A DNA stretch of 64,000 nt from Thelephora terrestris (Eukaryota; Basidiomycota; Agaricomycetes; Thelephorales; Thelephoraceae): NCBI GenBank assembly GCA_015956445.1, contig WIUZ02000003.1, positions 2,108,001-2,172,000 of the forward strand. The letters run 5' to 3'. Both the position numbers and the translations under genes were made by a program. Shown one piece after another: positions 34,695-51,293 of the stretch (positions are counted from its first letter, which is position 1; every line of letters begins with the position of its first letter). Below the pieces are notes generated by a model. It saw only the letters and a program-made list of their open reading frames with translations, did not search any database and was not told where the DNA came from.

Positions 34695-37333
34695 ATGTCC
34701 ACCACACCGCTACGTTCGTTGGTCCAGTCGAATCAGCCCTCCTTCGAGACACCGAAATCGAAACGCGATCCCAGTGTCGTCCGTTATGATGATGTACCAA
34801 GCAACACACACAGCACCCGCGGGTCAGCCGCCTGTATGAGGCAAGAAGGCAATACGGACCGGGTCGAGGGCTACAAGCGCAACGACTATAACAGCTACAT
34901 CTCCGAGGATCTCAAAAACCGAGTCTTTGTTGATTTCGAGACCTTCTTGCAGTCTGCCCTACACGTTCCTCGCGACTGGAGGACCCTATGGGGACCGGCT
35001 ATCGAAGCAGTCAAGGCGAACGAGGAGTTCCGCGAAGGCAAAACAGAGTACTGCAAGCAATGCGACGCGCCCGGTTTTACGGAGAAGCCATTATACAAGC
35101 CGTTGATGGAAACCGCAAACGCTGTTCTCGACGTCGTGTCTGCGTCCGAGTTTGACGGCATCTCCGGGACTCCCCAGTACTACCATGTCAACGATCGCGA
35201 GAAGCTTCGGGGTGGTGTCATCAATAGGGCCGACCTCTCCCCTGACCTGGTTGTCCTCCACAAGGGGTGCCAGGCCACCGAGGATATCCAGACGAGCGGG
35301 GAACTTCAACCCCCAAAGGAAATCCACTGGGCTAACGCGCTTCACGTCCTCGAAATCAAATCGCGTAACACCGCCATATGCGATGGAGATCACATACCAA
35401 GGCTGATCATTAATGGTAAGCACGTATCGAGTTCGCTCTGGCGGAACACGACTGAATTGGGGGACAGAGATCGATCCGCTCTTGAACCACGCGCCTTCCA
35501 CCCAGCGAAAATCGCACAAGATTGTTCTCCCTGAGGCTGTTCTCCCTGACACGCCTACAACTGGTCCCGACTCTACTTCGTCTAAAAAGCGGCAGTCTGT
35601 GGAATCGCATGCAAGCGATCAGCCGAGGTCAAAGAAAGCCAGGACGACATCCAAATTGCTCCCGGTATCTGAAGACGACCCAGGTTCTTCTATGTCAACG
35701 CCGGAACCCCAAACACAAGTTGCCCCGGCCCTACAAATTGGCAGCTATCTTTTGGAGATGTTCTCCGTCCCTCTGCTTCGTTCCCACGCTACCGTCTGCC
35801 TTGTCGACCGCGACCGTTTGCAGCTGTATCACGCCAACCGCTCGGTCATCCTAGTCTCCTCGGCGATAAACATTTCCACGGGCGCCGGGTTGGACCAGTT
35901 CATCGCCGTCATCATCGCCTTTCACTGCCTTTCGTTAGACCAAAATGGGATTCTGCATACCTTCGCAGAAGGCAACGCCGAACTAGTGAAAAACACCAAG
36001 ATTCCGTCGGACGACAGGGCCATTCAGAATCAGAACGAGCTGCGATTCAACATTAAAGAACCGGAGAAACCGTTCACTCTGATCCTGGGCGATGTCATCT
36101 CACGCGAACCGGCGATTATCGGGCGGTCTACGGTGGTGCTGAGGGCAACCTCCCTCGAATGGCCGGGGGAAAAGCTAGTCGTCAAGGTCAGCTGGCCGAG
36201 TGACACCCGGGTTTCAGAGAACGAGTTCGTGAACAAGGCGATCGAGGAGGCGAAGAAGAAGGAATCGACATGGGCAGCCAAGCACCTCCCCAAGATCTTT
36301 TGGGCAGGCGACATCAATTTTGGCACGGACTCAACCTTTGAGTCGGTCGCGAATTTGTTTAATACCGCCACGCTCGTGGGTGGGGGTGGCAATTTTGTGT
36401 ATGAGAAGCGTGTCCTCCGGGTTATCATTCAGGAAGAGCTGCACCCTCTCAAGTCGCTGGGGGATGTGAAGGAAATTGGACAGGTTTTCGTTGATGTCGC
36501 ATGTGGTGCGTGCCCCCTTTGCTTCTCGGCTACTAGCACCGTCCACTTACACCGTTCTAGTCCATCGTTGGCTCCATGACCACCCTGGGATCCTTCATCG
36601 CGACCCCAGCCCGAACAACATCATGTGTCGCATTATCGAGAAACCGAACGTAAAAGGGGAACCAAGTCGGAAAGTCTATGGGGTCCTTACCGACTACGAC
36701 CTTTCGTCGTGGACGGTCCGCCTTAAAAATGACCACACCAAAACGTCGCAGCAGCGGACCGGAACGCCTCCCTATATGGCTCAGGAGTTGCTGGATGGAA
36801 CGAGCGCCACTCACCTGTATCGACACGACCTGGAATCGCTCTTCTATGTCATATTGCTGACGTGCGGGCGCCACGAGTTGGCTAATGAGAAAGTCGGGTC
36901 CACAACGGGACGAAGGATGGTCATGCGAGGCGGTTACCTTCCGTATAAGGGCTGGTTTAACCAAAAGGACTACGGCATACTTGGAAACGAGAAGTCTAGC
37001 TTCTTTACGCGTTCAAAGCCCATCGAGTTGTCCCCGTGCTTCGAGGACTTTCGTGTATGGTTAGAAGAGCTTCAGTTGCAATTCGTGGATGGGTTCACGC
37101 TCAAGACTCGCTATATGGCGAAACAGAAAAGACGGCTGCGTCATGGAACTTCTGCGGGCGAGGTCGATAACTCGTTTGACGACGAAACGTTGGGGAACAA
37201 CATCGACTACGCTTTCTTCATCGAACCAGTCCGTTGGCTATCGGGAGAACTTGAAGGGTTAGTTATCCGCTACGACCCCAAAGCAATTCCGCCCCCGACC
37301 CCGACCGGTGCGCCCGGTGCTGACGACGCTTGA
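34695..37333 (+). CDS. FunK1 fungal-type protein kinase, copy B
   Basis: Exons 34695-35415, 35468-36505 and 36561-37333 sum to 2,532 nt, or 843 residues. Both introns lie at the same places as in copy A. The same kinase elements are present: VVKVSW, HRDPSPNNIM, DYDLS and GTPPYMAQELL. The linker at the start of exon 2 differs by an indel (IVLPEAVLPD), and a block of about 34 residues in the C-terminal lobe (37053-37147) differs from copy A at about half its positions, while the rest is almost identical. The frame is open throughout, so both copies may be expressed. The complete permease follows on the opposite strand. Confidence 0.88.
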
Positions 37334-43480: not shown

Positions 43481-43483
43481 TGA

Positions 43484-44323
43484 CACTGGGGGCAAGGGGT
43501 CACTTATACAGCAATTACATTGTGATTACATTGTGATTTTTTAGACAATGTATCCAGCCTGTGGCCAGGAGGTACATGCTGAGTTCTTTTAGAAAGGACC
43601 CATCAATGTGACCACAATGTGGCCAGTGGGTCCATCTTGATCACTTTTACAAAGTACCCATCAATTCTATCACAATGTGCCCTGTGGGTCCATGCAGGAT
43701 ACATTGTAAAAGTATTCATCAAAGTGGCCACTGGGCACTTTGTGAAAGAAACACCTGGGTTCTTTCACAATTTTACCTACAATGTGTCCAGCATACACCT
43801 GAGCCACTCATTGAAAGTTCTTTCATAAAGTATCCAGCAATGTGTCCACAAAGTATTCAACCAGATACTCAATGGTTTCTTTGAGAGTTTGTTGTGAAAC
43901 CCAACCGCATTGAGAGTTCATTGTGAAAACATTGAGTAGAACCCCCTGGGAACATTGTGGTTGCATTGCAGGGTACTTTTTGAAAGAACTCTCAATGAGT
44001 GGCTCAGGCACCCAGTAGGATAAATTGTAAATAATATTGTGAAAGAAAACCCTGGTTTCTTTCACAAAGTGCCCAGTGGCCACTTTGATGAATACTTTTA
44101 CAATGTATCCTGCATGGACCCACAGGGCACATTGTGATAGAATTGATGGGTACTTTGCAAAAGTGATCAAGATGGACCCACTGGCCACATTGTGGTCACA
44201 TTGATGGGTCCTTTCTAAAAGAACTCAGCATGTACCTCCTAGCCACAGGCTGGATACATTGTCTAAAAAATCACAATGTAATCACAATGTAACCACTGGG
44301 TAAGTGACCCCTTGCCCCCAGTG
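43484..44323. mobile_element. 840-bp foldback transposon in NLR gene
   Basis: The element is almost entirely one long palindrome: the left arm (43484 to about 43900) is repeated in reverse complement in the right arm (about 43920-44323). The two arms even give matching open frames on opposite strands. The ends read CACTGGGGGCAAGGGGTCAC and its complement, ending CAGTG. TGA occurs directly at both sides (43481-43483 and 44324-44326), a 3-bp target duplication. CACTA/CMC-type DNA transposons have CACTA or CACTG ends and 3-bp duplications, so a non-autonomous member is the best reading. The interior is A/T-rich and full of 'acaatgt' words. No transposase is present. Confidence 0.88.
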
Positions 44324-44326
44324 TGA

Positions 44327-46257
44327 CGTGGTTTTTGCCGATGGAGGTGGTTTATGAAGTCGATACAGGCATTCCAGGAAACTTCGTCCCCATCGGTCGA
44401 TGCAAAAACATCGAGTAGGTGCTCGACGTTCACGTCCTCCGATACGATCCACCGCGTTTCCTTCAATCTGGGCTCGTTGGTATTGGAGCCAGCCGACAGG
44501 CGGGTGAAGTAACTATCCTTGGTGGCACAAAGAAGGGGGGATGATTTCGGCTCTCGGGGGCAGAGATAGTCTCGAATCGGTGCCAGCATCGTGATGAAGC
44601 CGTTGCATCGATACGTCAGAGAAAGGACGCAGAACTTGTCAAAGATCCTCCGTCGGTCGGGGATGGTGGGAAAAAGCCAATCGAGGTTTTTCTCCTCTAT
44701 GCCTTGAGGGAAGAAGGCGACCACCCCGAGGAGGTCACGGGCTGTGGGACCGAGGCTGCAGAACGTCGGGGAAGCCAGCGACAATTCGATCGTTGCCGCG
44801 AAGCTCTCGTGGTGATCCGTGCGAAGCACCTGCGCACGTTGTTCTTCCCACTGATTTGCCAGTCGCTCGGAATTCCACGTGTTTTCGACTGCGGCGGTGG
44901 CGAGTACTGTTATCGACAGGGCATGGAAATCTAGGCGCCGAAGAAGGTCGTCGATGGTCACAGACCGCTCGCCGTCACTATAGATCCCGTAAAAGATGTT
45001 GCATGCGGCTTCCTTCGACAACGGTGGAACGTACAAGCGTTCGCAGTACCGGGGGGTTGTCGTGATACGGGAAGTGATACAAAGCCATATGTTTTCGAAT
45101 TGAAACAGTTCGTGCACCGCTGCGTAGATCTCTTGGTGATTTGTCGCTTGGGGGTCAAGGAGGGACTCGGCGTTATCGAGGACTATGAACATATCCTCAG
45201 AGGAGAGCCGGGGTCGCAGGGGTGTCATATCTTTGGGGTTTTCGATCCCCGCACCGATGACTTCCGAGAGACGAGCGAGGAAATGGGGACACGAAGCCGG
45301 GAACTGATCACAGCGGATGAATCGACGGTTACTACCAAACCGTTTGCTGACGCGATCGTCGTGGAGGACCTTGAGAGCGATGGAAGTTTTGCCGATCCCC
45401 GCTGCGCCTATCAACGCGAAGTGTTGGAGGTTTTGGGCAAATCCGACGACCTTGTCGACCAACTCCCCGCGTCCGAAAAAGGCTCTTGGCGCCGGGGGAG
45501 GTAATTCTCCGTCGTGAGCACTGTGAAACCGTGAGACTGTGGACCCCCAACCTTAGGAACCACCGACCTGGTTTGAGGCTAGGAGGTAATCAGTGTCCTG
45601 TCGTCTACCGATAGGGCGCTGTGCTCACCGATCGCTGTGACTGGCCAATGCATTCCAGAGCTGCTAACGTGTCATGACGAAGGTCCGAAAGCATCGTATT
45701 GTTGCTCATTAACAACGCCATCTGAAGAGAAAATCCTTAACGATCGTCAAGCGAAGCTGGCTCAACGCACTTTGAGAGCCTGGGTGGCCCCGATTGGGTC
45801 ATGCTCCCCCCCGGCGATCGCATCCCCGTTATCCTTCTTGTTAAAGAGTCTGGAAGGCTTCCATTTAGCATTCCCGACTGACCCCCTCGAGGTCGCGGCC
45901 ACAGTCCTGCGGGAATGACCTTTGTAAGTAAAACATTCAGCGTCCAGGTTCCTGGTCAACTAACGTGGTCAGCTTTTCGACCGCCTCTAGCACTGGCCGA
46001 CTGGTTCTATCTGACGGTCTCCCTTCCAACGCCCGGTCGATTACTGCACATACGCCGACGTAATCTCGTTTGTTGGCCATCGCGTCCTGCAAGAACGTAA
46101 GCTGGAAGCTCATCGCTGGAGATACTCTGTTCGTGGCCAGAAAGATACTGACGAAGTTTTGAGCCGGTGGAATATCACAGGTGACCTTTGCACGATTTAG
46201 CGCTTGGACTTTCGTGTCTACTGTCGAGAGATCGGTATCAGAATCTTTCTGTCCCTA
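44327..46257 (-). pseudogene. NLR-like STAND protein, 5' half (NB-ARC region)
   Basis: This is a fungal NLR-like NTPase. The main exon (about 45540 to the insertion) has a Pro-rich lead-in (PPPPAPRAFFGRGELV), P-loop GAAGIGKTSIAL, Walker B MFIVLDNAESLL, sensor CITSR, a DLLGVVAFFPQG block of the winged-helix part and YRCNGFITMLAPIRDYLCP. Upstream pieces of the N-terminal helical domain are visible: IPPAQNFVSIFLAT and DAMANKRDYVGVC..LEGRPSD..VLEAVEKLTT (about 45937-46257), and SRLFNKKDNGDAIAG (about 45770-45870). Splices among the upstream pieces are not resolved. At 44323 the frame enters the transposon, adds about 19 foreign residues and stops, so the present product would be NB-ARC without TPR. 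Such proteins act as regulated switches, in fungi often in heterokaryon recognition or defence. Confidence 0.75.
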
Positions 46258-46729
46258 GGATATTGAAGCAACTGTCGAGGCTTGTGGGAACGAACTCGAG
46301 AAAGGGTTGAAAACCAAGTAGAGGGGAAAGCCGGAGCCTTATTTAAACTCATCGATGGGCGGCTATACTGGCATAGCATGCCTCACGGAAGCAGGCAGGC
46401 GAACCTAAGATACTTACAGCCAAAAATCCCGTGCTCTCACCTTGCCTCATTAGGATTGCAGAAGAGACACCTGACGGTTTGAGCGGTGTTCCAGATATCA
46501 TAGCCTATAGAGATATTGCATAGCTAGGGACGATCGCTCAACATGGCGGTAGATCCCGTGGCTCCCCACATATGTTTCAAAAAGCGGCGAGCAAAGATGA
46601 ATCGTTCGTTGTGCCCTTTGAAAACGAGCGCGAACCTGGGGGTCTCGCCGGAGGGTCTGGTCTTTGAAATTACCTCACCGAGGAAAAGGCCGTGACTGAG
46701 ACAGGGGTCGCAGAGCCGTAGAACATTCT

Positions 46730-47365
46730 ACTCACTAAAGTTTGCCGCCGTAAATCCGAATTGAGTCAGGCTTTGCAGACCAACGTCCGACCTGCGAGGG
46801 AATGCGGTCGCGAAACCAAAAATAGGTTGCAGCGAATGAGTGAACGAATACCACCAAACCAGTTCTTGATACGTTCGTCGTGGAACTTGAACGTAGGAGC
46901 AATAGAAGTTTTCCCACTCCCCCTGCACAGATTATGGCGATGCTCAGTTTAAACGGCAAACTATCAGTGACCGTCGAGCAGGGTCAACTAAACATACATT
47001 CAAGATTTTGAGGATCCTTATGAGACCCTGCCTCCGCTTGGCGATCGCATCCTGACCGCCCTTCTTGTGGAAGAGCCAGGAGGCCATACCCCAATTACTA
47101 CGGTTTCTGATGGCTTTCCGCCGAATCGCAGTCACATTTCAACCATTGGGAACTTCGAAAGTGGAACATTTGGCGTCCGTGTCCTTGACTCGACCACGAC
47201 CCACGTATTCAACGATTCGATTTCCTTTAGCATCGCCGGACTGAGCTCAGGAGGGCCCTTCCCTTCCAATCCCCGGTTCAAGGGCCCTGAACACAGTAGC
47301 TCAAGAGAGCCCAGGATCAACGTAATCCGGCTCGCCGGTCCCGGTCTTAGATACCCGCGCAAACG
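46730..47365 (-). pseudogene. Decayed NLR gene (relic 2)
   Basis: The pieces run in the right order on the minus strand: LNRGLEGKGPPELSPAMLKEI (about 47200-47290), ASWLFHKKGGQDAIAKRRQG (about 47010-47080), then a P-loop remnant near 46900 (CAGG in one frame, GSGKTSIAP in another) followed by HDERIKNWFGG. The P-loop is split by a frameshift and the sequence after about 46830 loses similarity. The blocks are those of the neighbouring NLR at 42.6-46.3 kb, so this is a tandem paralog that has decayed. No TPR region is found. Confidence 0.65.
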
Positions 47366-47399
47366 TGAGATTGAGGTTTGTCACTGGAGTAGGGAAGGA

Positions 47400-48773
47400 T
47401 GAGATCAAACCCTGATTGCAGTCGGGAGTTTGCCGGTCGAGTCAACGGCAACTTGAGCTTGCATAGTACCACAGGCGTCCTCAGCGCGATTTGGATCTTG
47501 GATCCCTGTATCCATCGTCAAAGGTGTCATGCGGTGAGGATAAGTGCAAACCTTATACGGATACGATGACCGTTTGGGAATGGTGCGCCTCGTTGCATGC
47601 AGCAGTTTAGTTCATCGCCAACGTTGTCCGGCTCGCGCATTGCTGGGATGTAGCCACACATAAGAGGCTACCAAACCGTTGGGCGCAGTTCCTGTGTTTC
47701 CTAGATCATAGAAAGGTTGCACGGCAAAGATCGGTCGTCCAGCACGGCGGTGGCAGTTTGCGTAAGTTCCAAGAAGAGGAGGAATCCAGCGAGCAGCGAG
47801 CTCAAAAATAACTCACTGCACACCCGTTAATGGCGGAGGCGAATATCACCTCGAAAGCTATTCCCAACTCATCCTTTGGAATCACCCGCCTCGAAAAAAG
47901 TCGAAAACGGTCGTGATCGCGATATGGGGTTACAGCGCGTGAGACACGCCGAGTCGGACTTGCCCGAGGATTGAGACCTTGAGAGAGGACCAGGTGATCA
48001 TCCATCCTCCCCCAAAGGCCAAGACGTTAGAAGAATCTCGATTGAAGCTACGAGATCGGACAAGCCAGTTACGGGGTGTGTTGATTAGCGCAGAGAGACA
48101 TTGGTGATATTGAGGCGAGCACGAGGAGAGCGGAGAACCCTGACCCACGCCGCCAGACGTTCATCAAATAACAGGACACAGGGCTCAACGTTGCTCCAGC
48201 GCACTGGCCCGTGGTGGTGTAGAGGTTGGGCTCTTCAAAGTTCTTCGAGTGCCGAACGTCGAGCGAATTGGACGAAACAACTGAAGAAAGATCGGAAAAC
48301 CCCGTCTGCTGTGGCTACAATGTTTGTCAGCCCTGGCACTCACTGTCGAACGTCGAACCCCTACTACTCGTTTAGGCAAATTCCCCGATTCGGAAGTGTT
48401 ATTCCCTTTTACCGCTCGTCCCAGCCTCAAGTATTCGCGGAAGAAGGGTCCCAACCATCGTGAAGGAGCCCCGGCAGCGTACCACCAAAATGCACAACAA
48501 AATCCATCTCTCGGCATCATATAAGTAACAGTCCAATCGTAAACACATCAGTCCATATACATCAACGAAACCAAAGAACCTCCGCAAAGACGTGAAACTA
48601 CTCGAAACCTCATCAAACTCCACGTCCAAAAAGTCTCGACTGAGAACCAGACATAAACGAACATCGGGTCCACCACACTTATCCCGCTCACCTGGAACCA
48701 AAACCCTGGGAAACAGGTACGAAATGAAAAGGGTGAAAAAGGCGGGCGTGCACGAGAAAGGATGAGACTTGAC
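47400..48773. other. Intergenic stretch, no gene seen
   Basis: Open frames on both strands are short and overlap. The right end adjoins the apyrase stop and should include its 3' UTR. No repeat was noticed. Confidence 0.4.
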
Positions 48774-51293
48774 CTAGTCCCCGTCCAAAGGTAAATGCAA
48801 CACGCTGTTTGATCTCGAAACGGCCTGCCTCGGAACCAAAGTTGACAGATTCATCTGACTCGAGTTCAGCGACCTCGTAGAATAGAACGACCCTATGGAC
48901 GTGCCAGCCCCCGCTTCGTCGAACCCGCTCAGTCGTGGAGAAGAAGGGGTCAGCTGGTGAGCTGTGCCTGTGCTTAAACTTGTGTTCAGAGTTAAGGAGG
49001 ATCCGGTGAGGGAGTTCGCAGGGTTGCCGCTGGGAATCGAGGAGGATGCAGAGAAGGAGGCGGAGAGCGGAGCAGGTAGCGGGAAAGAGGGCGACCGGCT
49101 TGGGCTTGGCCTCGACGAGCTTTGGGTCAACCCCCACGAATAGCTTCTCGTGAGCGAGGTATTGATCGCAGAAGGTTTTGAGGGGCGCGAAGGAGACGAA
49201 GATCCGGGCTTTGAACCGACGGGGAACCGCTGTAGTGGTTTGAAATTCGAACCTGACCTCGAGCTCGATAAGGACGAACGGGGCGACGAGCGCGGGGACG
49301 CGAAGACGTCGCCGTTGGCGTGACCCTCTTCCATAGCGTAGCTCTCCGACACGAACTTCCTCCCGGGGGTATATGTGCCATTCCTATGTCTTCCTCTGGA
49401 GGCGTACCTCGTAATCCGCTTGCACGTTGCCCGTAAGGAGAACCTCAATCTCCACGTTATCATCCCCAATCCACAGAGCATAAAGATGTAGAAGACGAAT
49501 CCGACAAAAGAGAATCCCAAGGACTTTCTTGTGAGCGAGGTGGGCAGGTGATCTGCTAGTTTGTCTTCGATGGTATCAAAGTCCCAGAAAGGCGGACTGA
49601 ATGCAAAGGGCGAGTCCATCCAGTGTGGCCGTGACCAACCATCCAGAGGGTCGGTTATAGGTTTCGTTGTCGAAGATAGCGGTGGGACCTCCTTCGAAGC
49701 TTCGAGCACCATCTTCCCCAACGTCCAGCTGAACGCGATATCTCCTACAGTGTTCACGCTCTGGAACGCCGGACGTCCCAACCCCTTCTCCTGCGCTTGG
49801 GCTGAAACCGCTGGCCCTCCTTCCGTCACTACCGGGTTTCCTGTGGGATCTATGATCCGCGGCATCCCTAGACCCGAGTGTAAGACGTTGACGACCCATG
49901 CAGCTTTGAAACACTGCATCTGCAGGCGAGGTATCTCGACGTTATCTCCCCACTTTCCAACACCAACGATCCTACCATCTTTCTCAACCTCTCCATCGCC
50001 ACCTAACCGTTCCTTTCCGCCTTCCAACTGAGAATTCCTGTGCTGCTCGAGAATATCGTCCCAGCCCCGTTGGCAAAACTCCACCGCGGCCCTCTCGTAT
50101 TGTACAAAATCGTACGCTCCACCGAGCCCGAAGACGTGTTCAGCAGAGTACCAATATTCTGACACACCGATGAAGTGGGAAACCGAAAAGTCGATCGGCG
50201 GGACGTGCACGCCGTTGAAAAGACAAGGAGGAGCAGAACAAGGGGCATCTTTATTGAGAAGCGAAGAGGTCTTCTCTAGACATTGTTCGAAGGAACCAGT
50301 TCCGACGAGGGTATGAGGTTGTTTAGAATGTTGAGAGGCAGAAGGAGGTTGAAGAGGCTGTCCGACTAGTTTGAGGTCCTTTGGGAGACACGGATCGAAG
50401 ATGACATCCGAAGAGGTATCAGGGTTCGTTAAGCGATCAGATTCGAAAGCGTTTACAGCCTGCGCGACGTATCGTTCCCGGGCCTGGTTCGTTCCATACC
50501 CCAGCCAAGTCGTGACGAACACTTTGTGAACGATCTCCTCCCCACCAAGTAACCTCAACCTGACCTCGATCAGGCTGTTTTCTGGATTTTCCCGCTCGGC
50601 TAAACTTGGCTCGAAAGCGATCTGGGTTGAGGCTCCTCCCATATCGAGAAACCCGTACGTAGTTCGGTCTTGTGAATGGCCAGTGAATCCATCCATGAGA
50701 TAGTTGACAGAAAGCCACCCAAAAAGCCCCTCTTCCTCCCCAGTGATTATCCGAATGCTCGACCCGCACGGACCCGCAGAGGAAGGCCCGTCAATTCGAA
50801 AGTTGGATTGTGTTCTGAAAAAGTGACAAGTTTCCTCCAAGATCTCGACCTGTTGCTCTTGGGTGAGTAGCCGCATGCCAGCGGTGGCCAATAGAAAAAC
50901 CGGCGTCTCAGCTTCGACCGAAGGCGGAAGGTGTGTCCTGGCGTAGTCAACGAACGGTTGTAGATACTCGGACACGCCCTTGGGGTTTTCCGCAAATGAG
51001 GAAAGACCTGTTCGCAAAAACAAGCTTAAACGTTAAGATAACAGTACCTGGAGGAGTTCCGAGAGTGAGAGTGCCGCACCAGGTTCAGCTTTGTAAATCC
51101 AGTCATCCGGATTCTGCGTCCCCTTCTCCACCTTTGGCAAACGACCATACGACTCCTCTCCTTCCAATTGTCGTACGACGGTAGCTTCTTTCCAGCTATA
51201 GATTTGCAGCCTCGAGCCGGATGAACCAGCGTCAATGACTATCCCAAATCGTCGCGCGTAGAGCCATGATTCCGTAGAGGTCGGAGGGGGCAT
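48774..51293 (-). CDS. YND1: GDA1/CD39 nucleoside phosphatase (Ynd1-like apyrase)
   Basis: Two exons, 51080-51293 and 48774-51007, joined by a 72-nt intron, give 815 residues. In yeast, Ynd1 hydrolyses nucleoside di- and triphosphates in the Golgi lumen, removing the GDP or UDP left by glycosyltransferases. The apyrase conserved regions appear in order: DAGSSGSRLQIYSW (residues ~21-34), ATAGMRLL, ITGEEEGLFGWLSVNYL and GFLDMGGASTQIAF. A membrane segment (GFVFYIFMLCGLGMITW) near residue 580 is followed by a long Ser-rich, basic tail of about 215 residues, presumably cytosolic. The intron is placed at KAEPG|LSSFAENP because only that join keeps the family sequence in frame. ATG 51293 lies 20 codons before the first apyrase motif; no classical signal peptide precedes it. 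Confidence 0.9.

Follow-up and report, generated by a model that had tools for sequence, protein, structure and literature searches.

The locus described here raises the question of whether a mobile element has recently disrupted a working NLR gene. In a 64,000-nucleotide stretch of Thelephora terrestris DNA (hereafter called the window), two halves of an NLR coding sequence flank a foldback element, and an original prediction, made from the letters of the sequence, held that this element is a transposon whose removal restores the reading frame exactly. The locus is very probably explained by insertion of a non-autonomous EnSpm/CACTA-type MITE into exon 6 of the NLR gene, which is now most likely a pseudogene. 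In the mechanism that we propose, the MITE, which is almost wholly one long hairpin, would have been mobilised by transposase supplied from elsewhere in the genome, and would have entered exon 6 of an NB-ARC/TPR NLR at a TGA, which became duplicated. Overall, the locus shows MITE biology of an ordinary kind in a genome rich in NLRs, to which probable gene conversion between the arms of the element makes a useful addition.

The predicted length of the element, its CACTG..CAGTG ends and the TGA on either side were all borne out, with the exact coordinates given in Table 1. The terminal sequence is CACTGGGGGCAAGGGGTCACTT, with the inverse at the other end. The outer arms of the window element are 94% complementary across 307 nt, and the hairpin goes on toward the centre at lower similarity; of the 402 pairs that align in the 47-copy consensus, 380 are complementary. 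When the minus strand of the element is folded as RNA, the predicted energy is -660.8 kcal/mol, versus a mean of -237.65 in 20 shuffles (z -50). As is typical of MITEs, the element is noncoding: no open frame inside it reaches 200 aa.

Table 1. Positions in the window of the element, its flanks and the exons of the interrupted gene
Feature	Position	Strand	Basis
840-bp foldback MITE, EnSpm/CACTA type, CACTG..CAGTG ends	43484..44323	.	ends, arms, family copies
TGA target site duplication, left copy	43481..43483	.	flank comparison
TGA target site duplication, right copy	44324..44326	.	flank comparison
Left outer arm; tracks the same copy's right outer arm across the family	43484..43789	.	arm comparison
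Right outer arm	44018..44323	.	arm comparison
NLR exon 1 equivalent, without start codon, in-frame stop at codon 6	46126..46272	-	paralog exon model
NLR exon 2, in phase and 21 nt shorter than its L033-L035 counterparts	45965..46086	-	paralog exon model
NLR exon 3, in phase and 3 nt shorter than its L033-L035 counterparts	45771..45906	-	paralog exon model
NLR exon 4, in phase and equal in length to its L033-L035 counterparts	45629..45721	-	paralog exon model
NLR micro-exon 5, 11 nt, inferred from borders common to L033-L035	45568..45578	-	paralog exon model
NLR exon 6 first part, NB-ARC/STAND NTPase half, open frame	44326..45520	-	profile match, paralogs
NLR exon 6 second part, TPR half with stop codon	42592..43482	-	profile match, paralogs

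The NB-ARC and TPR halves share one frame across the element, and to this extent the expectation of "no frame change" on removal holds. However, it is weak evidence: the element plus one target copy (840+3) amounts to 843 bp, a multiple of three, and therefore a kept frame alone is uninformative. The frames of the two halves extend into the element for only about 20 and 60 nt. Because the NB-ARC half stays open until a stop 20 residues past the junction, and because truncated NLRs are known in general, one could propose that the element acts as an intron or exon donor and yields a functional chimeric or truncated NLR. We consider this highly improbable, given that the five introns of the gene measure 39 to 58 nt, as against an 840-nt element whose translation in the NLR frame, inspected by eye, contains 11 stops, and that exon 1 has no start.

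Insertion into a once-continuous coding sequence is instead indicated by related genes. Profile searches of the two halves gave a TPR_12 match above the cut-off (1.6e-13) and matches to nSTAND1 (6.2e-05) and NB-ARC (0.0035), both below the curated cut-offs. At least 111 stretches of the genome match the NB half (102 candidates scored) and at least 132 match the TPR half; the gene is thus a member of a paralog family that numbers about a hundred or more in this genome. We examined the 19 best NB matches after the window's own (L032-L050). As in an NB-ARC/TPR NLR, an NB-ARC/STAND region is followed by adjacent TPRs in 18 of the 19, and the same number cross the insertion point in one open frame; the other, L044, has an earlier stop. 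One paralog, L032, carries KPRQTVLRSKIEG, 13 residues identical to the window halves when abutted. These comparisons confirm that a transposon inserted, with a 3-bp duplication, where related proteins are continuous. A large paralog family, for which birth-and-death evolution is proposed, is also a feature of fungal NB-ARC/TPR NLRs as they are portrayed in one report (PMC4986451), and the window gene has in common with them the order of NB-ARC and then TPR repeats; it differs in that it is interrupted and has no usable start codon. Birth-and-death turnover presumably applies to the present family as well.

Whether the gene was working when it was struck is a separate matter. A six-exon model fits paralogs L033, L034 and L035 with equal phases and also fits the window gene, with in-frame length differences only. 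(In L035, the donor after exon 2 is ATAAGT where other paralogs have a GT donor, which is either a lesion particular to this paralog or a splice site of an unusual type.) Neither half was originally thought to be damaged otherwise in the main exons. The main exon indeed runs for about 2.1 kb without a stop or frameshift, but exon 1 is damaged: it has no start codon and contains a stop at codon 6. When the alignment was inspected by eye, the start codon was present in 14 of the 16 alignable paralogs, L037 and L045 being the exceptions; L036, L040 and L048, which are not alignable at the exon 1 start, were left out. The window gene therefore does not have the intact start codon and N-terminal exon of an NB-ARC/TPR NLR, and the assertion that a working gene was hit is not supported, given these two lesions. 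Because exon 1 is damaged in addition to the insertion, the gene is most likely a pseudogene today, with a presumed loss of function. It may not have been functional when the MITE arrived, and the exon 1 lesions may be older or younger than the insertion; they might also be circumvented by an alternative first exon elsewhere. Stops also occur in 16 of the 111 listed NB-half matches (our own count, in which some could be unrecognised introns), and decay looks common across this NLR family. To such decay of the fungal NLR repertoire the MITE contributes, and the locus serves as a warning that an exact empty-site reading alone is no proof of a functional target gene.

Measures of constraint and age bear on the same issue. 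For the NB half, median dN/dS is 0.219 in 18 pairs that include the window gene, versus 0.173 in 153 other pairs, whereas the TPR half exhibits no rise (0.333 versus 0.367); L044 was excluded from both comparisons. The low NB-half values show constraint through most of the history of the window gene, and the slightly higher value for its pairs could represent relaxed constraint before the insertion. The window copy of the MITE differs from the 47-copy consensus at 29 of 840 sites, and 7 of these differences are private. The latter set a rough bound of 0.8% on change since insertion, in which pre-insertion changes are perhaps counted and from which conversion has perhaps erased some. An undamaged main exon agrees with a young insertion, and the relative youth of the event, as originally proposed, is thus moderately supported.

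These observations can be assembled into a different history, in which, in line with the original prediction, the MITE recently entered a fully working NLR, the insertion is polymorphic among strains, and exon 1 was damaged later or is bypassed by an alternative start. The open main exon, the preserved exon phases (exons 2 to 6 are all in phase) and the few private changes in the element would fit such a history. Nonetheless, we view it as rather unlikely, since the start codon is absent and codon 6 is a stop, NB-half dN/dS is slightly raised, and a second, empty copy of the gene was not found in the assembly, where the best other match to the NB half is 72% identical. Insertion into a gene that is now most likely a pseudogene is therefore the reading that we retain.

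The identity of the element was investigated by using its relatives in the same genome (40.6 Mb, 60 contigs). Full-length places at 93-100% identity number 40, including the window copy, among 40 scored of 420 candidates. For detailed comparison, we used 47 copies, of which 46 are 836-841 bp and one is 700 bp. Two of these, L020 and L021, lie about 45 kb apart on G000:C45 within an inverted duplication that spans at least 3.8 kb around one MITE insertion and is exact (0 differences). They were counted as one insertion, so that the independent copies number 46. Of these, 44 are bordered by identical 3-bp flanks, whose sequence varies from copy to copy (the flanks of L010 and L029 are unequal), and other genomic copies with the same ends and 3-bp duplications, as anticipated, do exist. 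The outer bases of the duplications are A or T in 72 of 88 cases (p 4.7e-11), compared with 47% A/T in the window.

The ends are not a product of chance: a genome search for the 22-bp end gave 145 exact occurrences, and for its reversed control 0. At up to two mismatches, 474 ends are found, but these include a sister family that differs by two bases there. Ends of the form CACTGGGGGCAAGGGG, which are of CAC..GTG type, are present as 516 exact copies of a 16-bp core (reversed control, 0). Sister families with the same core and different following bases account for 363 ends (up to one mismatch) and 56 ends (up to two mismatches), and there seems to be a further sister group of about 725 bp, judging from the spacing among the ends listed. 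Only the window copy, of 47, has the NLR family in its flanks, when these were inspected over 1.5 kb in 30 copies (less on one side where a contig ends) and over 0.5 kb in the other 17. The open run over the empty site has a median of 178 codons in 46 copies, versus 140 at random window positions, which constitute a crude background.

Three long spans between such ends (L063-L065), examined as possible autonomous elements, are all simply MITE copies split by other inserts, and were kept outside the family counts. In two of them, the 3-bp flanks are equal. In the first (L063:135-9356, 9.2 kb between ends), the insert has a 1735-aa open frame with RVT_1, RNase_H and Exo_endo_phos matches, and is taken for a LINE on the basis of these reverse transcriptase, RNase H and endonuclease domains. 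The other two (L064:139-4255 and L065:141-3296) contain inserts that differ from each other and that both have TGTC..GACA ends with 5-bp duplications (GYGGC); they appear LTR-like by these ends alone. Both are situated at the same position of the MITE, a GTGGCCAC palindrome that is a possible insertion hot spot.

Comparison with known classes was used to assign the element. Fungal EnSpm elements have CAC..GTG ends and 3-bp duplications, Plavaka elements have either TGT..ACA ends with 2-bp duplications or CATCA..TGATG ends with 2- to 3-bp duplications, and Zisupton elements make 8-bp target duplications, according to the class descriptions in one source (PMC12730594). By those descriptions, Plavaka membership is ruled out by the CACTG..CAGTG ends, and Zisupton membership by the 3-bp duplications of the 44 copies. 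Like EnSpm/CACTA (CMC) MITEs, the element has CAC..GTG-type ends and 3-bp target duplications, is noncoding, and reaches high copy number. It differs from them in being nearly all hairpin, in its CACTG end (plant EnSpm elements end in CACTA), and in that an autonomous partner was not found among the ends listed. We infer that it is a non-autonomous EnSpm/CACTA-type MITE and that its transposase is of the same class. The genome contains 73 matches to Transposase_21, the CACTA transposase domain, along with 132 to Plavaka and 125 to KDZ, none of which was seen between paired ends when the first 100 listed ends of each pattern were inspected by eye. A Plavaka gene with 3.6 kb around it (L083) likewise had no CACTG-type end pair, a weak negative result in that ends may lie further out. 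At G000:C1:3984732-3994726, two Transposase_21 matches with 948-aa open frames in opposite orientation flank an element of the sister group of about 725 bp.

The abundance of copies allowed us to compare the two arms across the family. In 46 copies, complementary changes affect both arms in 202 cells, as compared with 54.9 expected and a maximum of 68 in 200 shuffles; distinct mirrored changes number 58, as compared with 20.6 expected and a shuffle maximum of 27. In a control with partner positions slid by 1-5 bases, 16-62 cells are changed on both sides. Because such shuffles do not respect the relatedness of copies, a second test was based on arm distances. If arms evolve independently, the within-copy distance should on average equal the between-copy distance on any tree. 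After exclusion of L021 and L080, 45 copies remained, in which the distance between outer arms (304 pairs) is 3.7% within a copy versus 6.0% between copies, and 0 of 2000 whole-arm permutations are as low; in 42 of the 45, an arm is closer to its own opposite arm than to the mean foreign arm. By contrast, the inner arms (58 pairs) show no effect, with 13.9% within and 13.8% between copies. Mirrored changes private to one copy number 15, whereas 0.5 are expected and at most 3 occur in 500 shuffles.

The lower within-copy distance together with the private mirrored changes suggests arm-to-arm gene conversion. Probably, the outer arms (about 96% identity) have been repeatedly homogenised by conversion within a copy, which acts only where the arms are alike enough, and the inner arms (about 86%) have not. 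Such conversion might proceed by mismatch repair in a hairpin or cruciform, or through gap repair in which one arm is copied. Six mirrored pairs make up 12 of the 29 differences between the window copy and the consensus; most are inherited, because just one pair (185/656) is private to the window copy, whose two arms diverge by 4.3%, slightly above the family mean. Mirrored changes could also arise by selection on an RNA hairpin, given that a transcript of the element would fold near-perfectly. This we regard as improbable: among distinct changes in a single arm, G.T mismatches (56) and A.C mismatches (64) are about equally common (transversion mismatches, 45), so wobble pairs are not favoured, and some mirrored changes are private to one copy.

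Conversion between arms therefore remains our preferred reading, and it is known in kind, because Galileo, an element of the P superfamily in Drosophila, is described in one report (PMC3573991) as having arms that are 98-100% identical within copies, with conversion as a proposed cause. The window element resembles Galileo, as depicted there, in its long inverted arms that are unusually alike within one copy; it differs in its superfamily and in that its arms nearly meet, with almost no middle. A limited literature search found no report of such homogenisation in a fungal MITE. If our interpretation is correct, the family offers a natural gauge, in a fungus, of conversion between inverted repeats over very short distances, and its many similar copies make conversion between closely spaced inverted arms measurable directly from the genome.

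Other features of the window include multi-frame pieces on the minus strand at 46947-47611, upstream of the interrupted gene, that are similar to the N-terminal exons of the NLRs L033-L035 (best E 2e-10) and are probably a relic of another NLR. A GDA1/CD39 nucleoside phosphatase gene is located on the minus strand at 48774-51032, and a fungal-type kinase gene (Pkinase_fungal) on the plus strand at 35407-36579.
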